Assembly (NCBI GenBank): GCA_010356995.1
Contig: ML996705.1
Coordinates: forward strand, 541,853 to 605,852
Direction: 5' to 3'
Source: Trichodelitschia bisporula
Taxonomy: Eukaryota; Ascomycota; Dothideomycetes; Phaeotrichales; Phaeotrichaceae
DNA: 64,000 bases
Every line of letters starts with the position of its first letter. Positions within the stretch are counted from its first letter, which is position 1. The translations under genes were made by a program, and so were the position numbers. The notes below the pieces were generated by a model that was given only the letters and a program-made list of their open reading frames with translations, ran no database searches and was not told where the DNA came from. Positions 36,327 to 61,455 of this stretch are shown in pieces.

Positions 36327-38432
36327 ATGCTCAACTCATCAGCCATCTTCTCCCCCGTCCACATCCCCTACACTCACCCCACTCCAACCTCCACCCTCCA
36401 GCTGCTAACCAGCAGCGTCCTCCCCCCACCCCCAAAGTACCCCACAATCGCCACCACGGGTCCCATACTCGAGCCCAACAACACGCTGGACCCGACCACG
36501 GGGCCAGAGCACCAGCTCTCCGTCGGCGAAGGTGCGCTTCCCACCCACTCCCCACCACCAGCTATCTAACCCCCTCAAAGGCACCTACATCCCGCGAGAC
36601 ACCATCCTCCTCGCAACCCCTCCGCCTCACCCCTCCGAAACCCCCCCTCCAAACCCCAACCCGCTCGCAACAACCCCCCACCCCCCAACAAGCGGCACCA
36701 AGCTCTCCCTCGCCCGCCTACACTCCGCCCCAGTCCCGCGCCCCGAATCCCCCCACAGCCGCACCAGCACCTCCACCGGCGACGCAAGCAACCCCTCCTC
36801 CGCCCCCCCCGCCGGTCCCGCACCCATCTTCGGGTCCGGCAACCCGCTCCTGTCGCCCACGCCCGGCGCCACCCCCGTCCCCGCCTCCAAGCGGCGCAAG
36901 CCGAAGAGCAACATCGTCAAGAGCAACTCCAGCTTCATCAGTCGCGTCACCGTGCACGAGGGTTTAGCAAAACGCATTGCCGAGGCGGGGGCTGCGGGGG
37001 CGAGCGGGTGGGCGTTTGCGAACGTCAACCGCGCGCTGCAGTGGCTGGACCTGGGGGCGCCTGGGCGGGCAAAGCTAGACCCGCTGGTTAAGATCCTGTT
37101 TACGCGCGCGCATGCCCTGTGCCACGACGTCAATCCCGTGACGCGCAGTGCCGGGCATCTCGATGTGGCCGTGGGCTTCAGCACAGGGGATCTCATGTGG
37201 TACGAGCCCGTGAGCGGGAAGTACAGCCGGGTGAACAAGAACGGAGTCATCCACGCAGCGCCCGTGGCGGACGTGCGCTGGATGCCAGGGAGCGAGAACC
37301 TCTTCCTTGCGGCGCATGTAGATGGGAGTCTCGTGGTGTACGACAAGGAGAAAGAGGATGCGGTCTTTGTGCCTGAGTGTGCGGATGCGCTTACCCCGGC
37401 GCGGATCGTGGTGCGCAAGAGCGTGGGGAGTAAGAGCCAGAAGACGAATCCGGTGGCGTGGTGGAAGGTGAGTGCGCAGCGGATTAATGCGGTTGCGTTT
37501 GCGCCGGATGGGCGGAGGGTTGCGGTTGTGAGTGAGGATGGGTGTTTGAAGATTTTGGATATGCATCGCGAAGTGTAAGTGCACTCCCATCAAGGCGTCT
37601 CCATGGTGTAGTCGGTTATCACGTCGGTCTCATACGCTGTTATGATCCGGTCGAAGACTGGAGCGATCCGAAGGCCGCGAGTTCGATTCTCGCTGGGGAC
37701 ATTTCTTTTTGCCCTTCCCCATCACACCCTACCTAACCCCCTGGCCCTTCAACCCTAATTAACCTTTTTTTATCCAGCCTCCTCGACGTCTTCACCTCCT
37801 ACTACGGCGGCCTACTGAGCGTATGCTGGTCCCCGGACGGGCGGTACGTTATCACAGGCGGGCAAGACGACTTGGTATCCATCTGGGCCGTCGACGATGC
37901 CGCCCTCGTCGCCCGCTGTCAGGGACATAATTCGTGGGTCACGGCTGTGGCATTCGATCCCTGGCGCTGCGATGAGCGGAATTATCGTTTTGGGTCAGTG
38001 GGGGAGGATTGTAGGTTGTTGCTGTGGGATTTTAGTGTGGGGATGCTGCATCGGCCGAGGGCGGCGAGTGTGAGGAGGGCGGGTGGGGGGAGCATTGCCG
38101 GTGGGGTCGGGGCTGGGGGTGGGGTTGGGAGGGGGAGTGAGGCGCAGTTGACGCATTTGAGGAGCGGGTCTGCGGTTAGTGGGCGGAGTTTTTTGGATGG
38201 GGCGTCTGATGAGGAGGGGAGTGCGAGTGAGGAGGAACAGGAGATTGTGCATCCTGTTGAGGCGAGGGCGAGGACGGCGGTCCTTCCGCCGGTTATGGCG
38301 AAGTGTGTGGATGGGCATCCGCTTGCTTGGGTGGGGTTTGAGGAGGGGGGGGTGCTGGTTGCTTGTACGGAGGGGCATGTTAGGGGGTGGGATAGGCCGG
38401 TTGAGGGGGGAGGGGAGGGGGAGGAGGAGTGA
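36327..38432 (+). CDS. creC: CreC WD-repeat protein, CreB deubiquitinase partner
   Basis: Predicted 617-residue WD40 protein orthologous to Aspergillus CreC, which stabilises the CreB deubiquitinase in carbon catabolite repression (UAF1/Bun107-like role). Exons: 36327-36531, 36581-37574, 37778-38432. Intron 1 is 36532-36580 (GTGCGC...TATCTAACCCC...AAAG). Intron 2 is 37575-37777 (203 nt, GTAAGT...TATCCAG) and contains a complete tRNA gene. CreC-like marks are LPPPPKYP and QLSVGEGTYI near the N-terminus, then LLATPPPHPSE, the basic KRRKPKSNIVKSNSSFISRV, and FANVNRALQWLD. WD units follow, including LLSVCWSPDGRYVITGGQDD after the second intron. A low-complexity Gly/Ser/Glu region interrupts the last repeats, as in other CreC proteins. 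The exact first codon could lie elsewhere in the CT-rich leader. Confidence 0.92.
37597..37701 (+). tRNA. tM(CAU): Elongator tRNA-Met(CAU) with intron, inside creC intron 2
   Basis: Folded by eye. Acceptor GTCTCCA pairs with TGGGGAC, with discriminator A at 37701. The D arm is GTGTAGTCGGTTATCAC. The anticodon stem is TCGG/CCGA with the U31-U39 mismatch seen in elongator tRNA-Met. The loop reads CTCATAA once a 31-nt intron (37635-37665) is removed after A37. The T arm is GCGAG-TTCGATT-CTCGC. The intron contains TTATGA, able to pair with the anticodon loop as in other eukaryotic tRNA introns. The anticodon is 37631-37633. A T5 run at 37706-37710 can end Pol III transcription. The gene lies in sense orientation inside a spliceosomal intron of creC. 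Confidence 0.92.
37706..37710 (+). terminator. Pol III T-run after tRNA-Met
   Basis: TTTTT begins five bases after the tRNA 3' end, and a T7 run lies further on at about 37766-37772, next to the creC acceptor. Confidence 0.7.
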
Positions 38433-40580: not shown

Positions 40581-42380
40581 CTACTCCCCCCCAACACCCA
40601 CCCCCCGTCCCTCAACAACCTCCTCATAAAGCGGCAACCCGCCCTCCCCAGGCGCCCCCCCAACATCCCCACTCCTCACCGCAGTATTATAACTCGGCGT
40701 CCTAGCCAAAGCCTCCATATCATACACCCCCCCCCCAAGGAACCCGGGCACCGCAGCGATCGCCCCCGCGGGATAATGAAACGAACTCCGATTACTCGCC
40801 GCCCCGCTCCCCGGCTGCGCCCAACTCAGCGTCTGCGCCCAACTCGGCCCCGCCGCGCTCCCCCTCCTCGACGCATCGTGCGCGAACGGGGCGCTGATTC
40901 GTGCGTCGAGGGGGGGGGTCGGGGGGCCGGAGTGTGTCACGCCCGGGGGTAAAGAGGCGAGGCGCGCGTGCAGCGTGTGTGGGTTTGGATGAGGGGCGGT
41001 GAGTGTTAGGGCGGGGGGGGCGAGGGAGTCGGATACCGCGCCCACGAGGCTTGCGCCGCGGAGGTTTTCGTAAGAGGGGTTGCGGGAGAGCGCGGCGGCG
41101 GAGAAGGGCGTGTTTGCGCCGGAGAGGAAGGCGGCGGGGTCGATGTCGTCGTAGAGCGTGTCGAGGGTGTGGCGGCCGTAGGTTGGGGGGACGTCGGGCG
41201 CGGTGGAGGCGTGGGCGGGATGGTGGGGGTGAGAGAGGGTTAGAGGGGCTGTTTGGCCCATTTCGTCGACGGGGAGGGAGGGGGAGAGGAAGAGGTGCAC
41301 GAGGTTGCGGATTAGGAGTTGGGAGACGTGTCCGTCTGGGTTATGGAGGTTGACGTAGATCTTCAGATTGTGGTAGATGCGGATGTGTTCGCTCTCCACG
41401 CTCTGCCGGCAGCGGTTGAGGGAGCGCTCCAGGGGGAGGGTTACCCGGAAGTGGTGTGATTCGTCGGGGAGGCCGGTTGATTCTTCGGTCATGGGGGGGA
41501 GGGGCGTGGTGCCTGTTGGCATGTCCTGCTCGGTGGCGAGGACGACGGTGTCTTTTTGGTGTTGGCGTGCGCGGTCGGTGTGTAGTGTGACGCGCTCGAC
41601 GAGTTCCATGCGGATTTTGCCGATGGTGACGCCCTTGTGCAGCGGGCAGAGGGTCAGTTCGGCGGTTATGGCCGTGCCGTAGATGTAGTAGCGGGTGGGG
41701 AGGTAGATGTGGTACCAGAGCTTGTCGCGCCAGACATCCTCGTTGCTCTGCTTTTGTCAGCCTCGCGCCTTTCAAAACCCAACCGCAAGGAAAACGTACG
41801 TATGGCAGCGGCACCGTATCCGACACATCCCGCCCTAGCGTCCGAATCACACGGACATGCTTCGTCGCCGTGAGCGTCTTACTCATATACCCCCGATCAA
41901 TCTCAGCGTGCAAATCATAAACAATATACGCCCCCGGCAAGCCCTCCAAACTCTCCGGCATCGCGGGGTCAAGCGTGAACTTAAACGGCCACTCGTGGTT
42001 CCCCGGCGCAATCTTGTGCGTCGCGCCGCTGCCGCCTTCAGTCGGGTACAGCAGGCGTTCTTCGGATATCACGCTGCCTTTATCTCGGACGGCTGCGCCG
42101 GCTGCCCCGCCTTCCACCGGCCAGGACACTTTCCACTTGCCCTCGAGCCGTATGCGCACGGCCCGCACGTTCATGTGGTCCGGGCAGTTGAGGTGTAGTG
42201 TGCCCGCGAGCGTGGCGGGCTCGGCTTCGGCGGCTTCGCCCGTGAAGACTACGAAGGGGGTATCGAGGCTAGGGAGCGTTAGCTGTACGTCTAAAAGCAA
42301 GCGTGACGTCACGCCACTTACCGAATCTCAAACTGCTTCGGGAAGCGCGTCCTCGCGCCCCCGCTGAATACCCCCGCCAT
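40581..42380 (-). CDS. Alpha-arrestin with PY motifs (ubiquitin-ligase adaptor)
   Basis: Predicted 564-residue arrestin-related trafficking adaptor (CreD/ART type). Exons 42380-42322, 42268-41800 and 41747-40581 sum to an exact frame. Intron 1 (53 nt) is GTAAGT...AGCTAACGCTCCCTAG and intron 2 (52 nt) is GTACGT...GGCTGACAAAAGCAG. Arrestin N-domain: FEIRLDTPFVVFTGEAAEAE, RAVRIRLEGKWKVSW and the family core LDPAMPESLEGLPGAYIVYDL. Arrestin C-domain: NEDVWRDKLWYHIYLP, then CPLHKGVTIGKIRMELVERV. The tail is disordered, with PPTY near residue 363 and LPLY near the C-terminus, both ligands for WW domains of Rsp5/HulA-type HECT ligases. These adaptors drive endocytosis of nutrient transporters. I do not assign CreD itself, because several arrestin paralogues exist in moulds. 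Confidence 0.88.
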
Positions 42381-61362: not shown

Positions 61363-61455
61363 TGAACCCGACCCGACTTGAACGGATAACCTTCTGGAGA
61401 CTCGTCGTCATTCCATTTGCTGGAATCAGATGCGCTACCGTTGCGCCACGGGTCC
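61363..61455 (-). tRNA. tW(CCA): tRNA-Trp(CCA) with intron
   Basis: Folded by eye. Acceptor GGACCCG (61455-61449) pairs with CGGGTTC (61370-61364), discriminator A. The D arm is GGCGCAACGGTAGCGC. The anticodon stem is TCTG/CAGA, the loop TTCCAG, with anticodon CCA at 61423-61421. A 21-nt intron (61419-61399) follows G37 and contains TGGAA, complementary to the anticodon loop. The T arm is ATCCG-TTCAAGT-CGGGT. There is an A31-C39 mismatch next to the loop. A T12 run follows downstream. Confidence 0.92.

Follow-up and report, generated by a model that had tools for sequence, protein, structure and literature searches.

Small RNA genes nested in the introns of protein-coding genes include those of snoRNAs, and intronic snoRNAs usually depend on the transcription of their host. 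Intron-nested tRNA genes are also already known, and are common in worms. For C. elegans, the available part of the source gives 44% of 609 tRNA genes as intronic, a share no different from chance given the intron content, with 56% of the intronic genes in sense (PMC4999229). The same excerpt reports lower Pol III occupancy at intronic tRNAs, and a pairing with the host gene that is more conserved than in controls (PMC4999229). tRNAs of the sea cucumber are said to avoid introns in the portion available of another study (PMC8580430). In human reporters, mitochondrial-type intronic tRNAs raised splicing and five nuclear tRNAs lowered mRNA, according to the accessible text (PMC7722341). Judged by titles and the starts of abstracts, none of the hits listed in searches of one open-access library was recognised as a report of a nuclear tRNA gene inside a spliceosomal intron in fungi; one group of seven hits was made up of mitochondrial genome papers.

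The locus analysed here is a predicted tRNA-Met gene lying within an intron of the fungal gene creC. It resembles intron-hosted snoRNA genes in that a small RNA is nested in a protein gene, and differs from them in carrying its own predicted promoter. Host-gene tRNAs of Caenorhabditis, such as sup-7 in C03B1.2, are likewise nuclear tRNA genes in spliceosomal introns, as the available text describes them (PMC4999229). The creC case departs from these in two respects: with the introns of this fungus peaking at 40-69 nt, most of the host intron is taken up by the tRNA unit, and the nested tRNA has an intron of its own. A tRNA fold inside an mRNA intron is also shared with the nimtRNAs of human introns, which can change splicing; the nimtRNAs, however, are of mitochondrial tRNA origin, and their processing as tRNA out of the host transcript was not observed in the part of the study available (PMC7722341), whereas the creC-nested gene has three paralogues on nuclear contigs and full Pol III signals.

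The creC gene and its 203-nt intron

The window, which is the whole 64 kb stretch of DNA that was analysed (G000:C19:541853-605852), belongs to an assembly of 25.65 Mb in 30 contigs. The features of the locus are as follows.

36327..38432, + strand: creC gene model with exons 36327-36531, 36581-37574 and 37778-38432; 617 aa, start codon uncertain
36532..36580, + strand: modelled 5' intron of creC, 49 nt, taken from 11 listed options that restore the frame
37575..37777, + strand: creC 3' intron, host of the tRNA, 203 nt, GTAAGT...ATCCAG
37587..37593, + strand: CCATCAA motif, putative Pol III start region, upstream of the tRNA and inside the creC intron
37597..37701, + strand: predicted elongator tRNA-Met(CAU) gene of 105 nt, with 74 nt in the mature tRNA, in sense to creC
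37635..37665, + strand: tRNA intron, 31 nt, after position 37
37706..37710, + strand: T5 Pol III terminator followed by GC (CTTTTTGCC from 37705), inside the creC intron
37733-37737, + strand: CTAAC, alternative branch site of the 203-nt intron, 41 nt from the intron end
37755..37759, + strand: CTAAT, likeliest branch site of the 203-nt intron, with branch A at 37758, 19 nt from the intron end

The joined translation of the three exon ORFs gave the 617 aa protein, in which the Pfam WD40 domain was a clear match in the right part (40 bits) and barely above the cut-off in the left part (28.2 bits vs 27). Relatives were taken as the best 120 of 1413 proteins found by search; those listed include Venturia effusa (64%, the top match) and Verruconis gallopava (65%), both Venturiales (Dothideomycetes), and no close relative was among these best 120 of 1413. 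Searching for DNA of creC relatives gave two bacterial WD40 loci of 27-30% identity in genome contigs, which were left out, and none in viral contigs, either by protein search or by tRNA pattern. Downstream of creC, an Arrestin_C domain protein (52.7 bits) lies at 40581-41756 on the - strand of the window.

At the 5' intron, the 49-nt option was chosen because its SVGEG-TYIPRD join matches the relatives, whose consensus at this point is VVGEGTYVLRD. The predicted N-terminus (MLNSS...) does not match that of the relatives, which begin MFVLPPPP, and a further 5' intron may exist in creC. The earlier note had named the 203-nt intron the second of the gene; the intron itself stands, but owing to the unlike N-terminus its ordinal is provisional and may be wrong. 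Seven introns are reported for the Verticillium creC gene in the available part of PMC11546859.

At the level of sequence, 37575-37777 reads as a spliceosomal intron with good splice signals, as GT...AG borders, a branch-like site and an in-frame join were all found. Its coordinates, length and GTAAGT...ATCCAG borders had been given correctly by the earlier note, and the in-frame joining of the exons on both sides that it described holds as well: the translation joins, and relatives run contiguously over the junction, which is gap-free within 10 residues in 120/120 of them (best 120 of 1413). If the intron were retained, translation would end directly after ...DMHREV. In 273 kb of the genome, with both strands considered, the lengths of consensus-bounded introns peak at 40-69 nt (37 seen vs 8.5 expected), hence the creC intron, which compares with 49 nt for the other modelled intron of the gene, has about four times the usual length, as had been estimated.

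The nested tRNA-Met gene and its paralogues

The tRNA model RF00005 matched 37597-37701 on the + strand with 52.8 bits (gathering score 29) and an E value of 1.7e-08 on 64 kb. The gene looks intact, and the anatomy first proposed for it is borne out: a full tRNA-Met(CAU) gene in sense within the creC intron, a 31-nt tRNA intron and a T5 terminator are all present, with a Pol III gene, an mRNA intron and a tRNA intron stacked in one locus. By their consensus, we take TGGTGTAGTCGG (37604..37615, +) to be the A box and AGTTCGATTCT (37680..37690, +) to be the B box. ARAGORN missed the gene with bacterial defaults and called it His(atg) with introns allowed (the three paralogues were called Met(cat)), and a genome-wide Rfam search, in which 63 of 690 candidates were scored, did not list it. 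The case is a warning that fungal introns may hide tRNA genes, and that tRNA finders at default settings can overlook or mislabel those with introns, as ARAGORN did here.

The anticodon is CAU, within the loop CTCATA, and initiator-type marks are absent. Six intronless Met(cat) genes elsewhere in the genome (L002, L008-L012) share an A1...TA end and a GGATCGAAACC T-arm, which are presumably the initiator marks. Introns of elongator tRNA-Met are expected to lie one base 3' of the anticodon, to be complementary to it and to form a C32-G pair near the 3' site. This pattern is matched by all four tRNA-Met copies found (4/4), in which columns 34-38 pair with 45-49 and column 33 pairs with 67; in the creC copy the intron has a TATGA that can pair with the anticodon loop, and its positions 37646-37652 form a 7-bp hairpin with 37656-37662. 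We therefore predict a nuclear elongator tRNA-Met gene, with the intron and Pol III signals speaking for a nuclear identity. A tRNA-Val body with a changed anticodon was considered and rejected, as three Val(CAC) genes seen were unlike it and all four relatives read CAT.

Flanking signals were compared over 64 tRNA loci, a set made up of 62 of the 63 in the genome-wide Rfam list (C3:91361, within L018, was left out) plus C19 and C7, and biased in that these last two, both added by DNA search, are absent from that list. A CATCA-like motif occurred no more than 25 nt upstream in 34 of the 64 loci (33/63 without the creC copy), against a background of 434 in 11479 random nearby 25-mers (3.8%), and CCATCAA is thus likely to be the Pol III start region of the creC tRNA. 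Runs of T4 or more were present within 40 nt downstream in 61/64 loci, followed by GC in 43/64. The whole predicted Pol III unit, from the start-like motif to T5 (37587-37710), sits inside the intron at 37575-37777.

A DNA search of the genome gave at least four elongator tRNA-Met copies, namely C19 (the creC copy), C2, C21 and C7, all of which read CAT and have tRNA introns of 30 or 31 nt. Both C2 and C21 scored 52.9 bits against 52.8 for C19. All 74 nt of the mature sequence are the same in C19, C2 and C21, and the creC copy thus matches paralogues whose contigs measure 1.9 and 0.5 Mb; C7 has four differences, all in acceptor-stem pairs with pairing kept. Within the tRNA intron, the columns differing from C19 number 6/31 in C2, 10/31 in C21 and 13/31 in C7. 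If the exons changed at the lowest of these intron rates, all 74 of their positions would stay unchanged with a probability of about 1e-7, a plain estimate that ignores gene conversion.

A pre-tRNA structure of 32 pairs was defined from the cloverleaf, the 7-bp hairpin and the helix between TATGA in the tRNA intron and the anticodon loop, leaving out two unpaired positions (one in the D stem and one U-U beside the anticodon loop). These pairs hold in 128/128 cells (32 pairs in 4 copies). Eight cells were changed on both sides, compared with a shuffled mean of 2.7 and with 0/500 shuffles as high; pairs changed on both sides numbered 4, a value reached by 21/500 shuffles. The test used four sequences and a structure drawn from the same four, and the anticodon-intron pairs are invariant, so covariation is not seen there. 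The hairpin of the tRNA intron covaries across the four copies.

Energy folding alone did not give the cloverleaf for the creC copy or for its paralogues. The defined structure lay at -26.6 vs a minimum of -38.0 kcal/mol in C19, and about 11-12 kcal/mol above the minimum in C2, C21 and C7. The minimum-energy shapes of these three contain the anticodon-intron helix and the hairpin, both of which the C19 minimum lacks. Compared with shuffles, the fold of the creC tRNA was not unusual (z -1.10).

Two transcription units or a regulatory link

Most probably, two independent transcription units share this DNA, with the tRNA a tolerated passenger of the creC intron that has no dedicated regulatory link to its host. 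The support for this is the intact tRNA with an Rfam score like those of C2 and C21, the mature sequence shared with these two copies although their tRNA introns differ, the flank signatures, the covariation, the gap-free relatives over the exon junction and the good splice signals. Against it stands the preference of energy folding for other shapes. An elongator tRNA-Met Pol III unit would have the orientation of creC and sit after the 5' splice site and before the branch point, and this passenger would have made a short fungal intron long. Pol III would start within a few nucleotides before the tRNA and end at T5, and RNase P, tRNase Z, the splicing endonuclease and tRNA ligase would mature the product. 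Pol II would read through the tRNA, which the spliceosome would then discard along with the intron. If expressed, the locus would offer, in a genetically tractable kind of organism, a small natural setting in which to see how transcription by Pol II and Pol III, the spliceosome and tRNA processing coexist on one short piece of DNA. Conserved pairing of tRNA and host, as the available text reports for nematodes (PMC4999229), would argue against a mere passenger.

The earlier note had further suggested that the nested tRNA could affect the level of creC and that tRNA demand could be tied to creC output. Its anatomy is upheld, and these two links are possible in principle, with nothing computed here that supports them. 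In the form we considered, Pol III occupancy or cutting by RNase P/tRNase Z would lower creC mRNA, or host transcription would lower output of the tRNA copy. Intron retention or cutting would indeed truncate CreC at DMHREV, and there are partial precedents elsewhere: the available text on C. elegans describes an intronic tRNA influenced by the promoter of its host, and less Pol III on intronic tRNAs of the same strand than on those of the opposite strand (PMC4999229), and in the accessible part of the human study mRNA fell when five nuclear tRNAs were put into a reporter intron (PMC7722341). Such regulation is nevertheless unlikely at creC, where no structural signal beyond chance was found and where at least three other tRNA-Met genes exist, so the nested copy is not the sole supply.

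The structural signals considered include a fold switch, seen in silico, in which the acceptor stem forms in a short Pol III transcript and not in the longer creC intron. A switch of this kind shielding the pre-mRNA from RNase P was rejected, as 22% of 300 shuffles of the middle tail of the intron were at least as strong. Nor is it special to creC: among 41 tRNA loci with the stem formed (0.5 or more) in short context, 16, creC included, lost it (0.05 or less) when the flanks were extended. Shuffling the leader left the stem unformed in 98.5% of 200 trials, so the leader does not explain the loss. When 10 nt of exon were kept at both ends, the intron folded no better than shuffles (z 0.30).

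It also seems unlikely that the creC copy is silent, with Pol III blocked by Pol II read-through and the sequence preserved through recent origin or gene conversion. That same-strand intronic tRNAs carry less Pol III in C. elegans, according to the available text (PMC4999229), is consistent with silencing, and identical exons would also be expected under conversion, which the accessible part of a review describes for one-isodecoder tRNA genes (PMC4090602). Conversion would, however, equalise the tRNA intron too according to the same review text (PMC4090602), whereas the tRNA intron of the creC copy has diverged from all three paralogues with its pairing kept.

A reading in which the pairing is kept because it joins the two genes is very doubtful; here, in a fungus with tiny introns, the siting of one of four elongator tRNA-Met genes would set creC transcription and splicing against Pol III and RNase P within 203 nt, co-adjusting a carbon-repression regulator and tRNA-Met. 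Maturation of the tRNA from the excised creC intron, as for snoRNAs and not by Pol III, would fit its sense orientation and its position upstream of the branch site, but is highly improbable given a start-like motif, A and B boxes and a terminator of its own within the intron, and human intronic tRNA-like sequences were not seen processed from their host in the available text (PMC7722341). A tRNA-like pseudogene or chance match, for which the ARAGORN miss with bacterial defaults and His call with introns allowed might speak, is highly improbable in view of the Rfam E value of 1.7e-08 on 64 kb, two paralogues with identical mature sequence and the covariation.

Other tRNA loci in the genome

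The same 64 loci were scanned for further nested tRNAs by asking for a hexamer coding score of 15 or more on both sides, on one strand. The scan is weak, as the last exon of creC itself scores only 16, and with creC included it passed 2/64 loci within 150 nt (creC and L054), 4/64 within 200 nt and 10/64 within 300 nt. L069 was excluded as a nested tRNA by a stop codon before the tRNA. At L030 a zinc-dehydrogenase ORF lies upstream, and the downstream coding score is stronger on the opposite strand. The other loci considered were L010 and L054 (ORF lists only), L002, L021, L045, L051 and L063.

L054, a tRNA-Asp gene, is the sole other locus of the 64 with coding-like scores on both sides within 150 nt, and these scores are weak. 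All ten tRNA-Asp(GUC) loci of the set (L046-L055) are preceded by a near-identical leader that abuts the tRNA and measures about 25 nt; its sequence, in most cases CACTACGACGAGC[A/C]CAGCTCGCCCA, holds a CGAGC/GCTCG hairpin. As CATCAA lies upstream of this leader in L051 and L054, the leader would be transcribed.

Three of the 64 loci (L007, L018 and L064) have no T4 run within 40 nt downstream, and at L007 (Lys-ttt) the CATCAA-like motif is also absent. These loci are possibly pseudogenes or terminate differently.

A second intron-bearing tRNA lies in the window at 61363-61455 on the - strand and was read as tRNA-Trp(CCA). It was missed by the whole-window Rfam scan, and ARAGORN called it Leu(cag); in a short scan it scored 46.7 bits with Rfam. 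The ORF list gave no clear host gene for it. CATCAA is found just upstream of this tRNA, and a long T run follows it.
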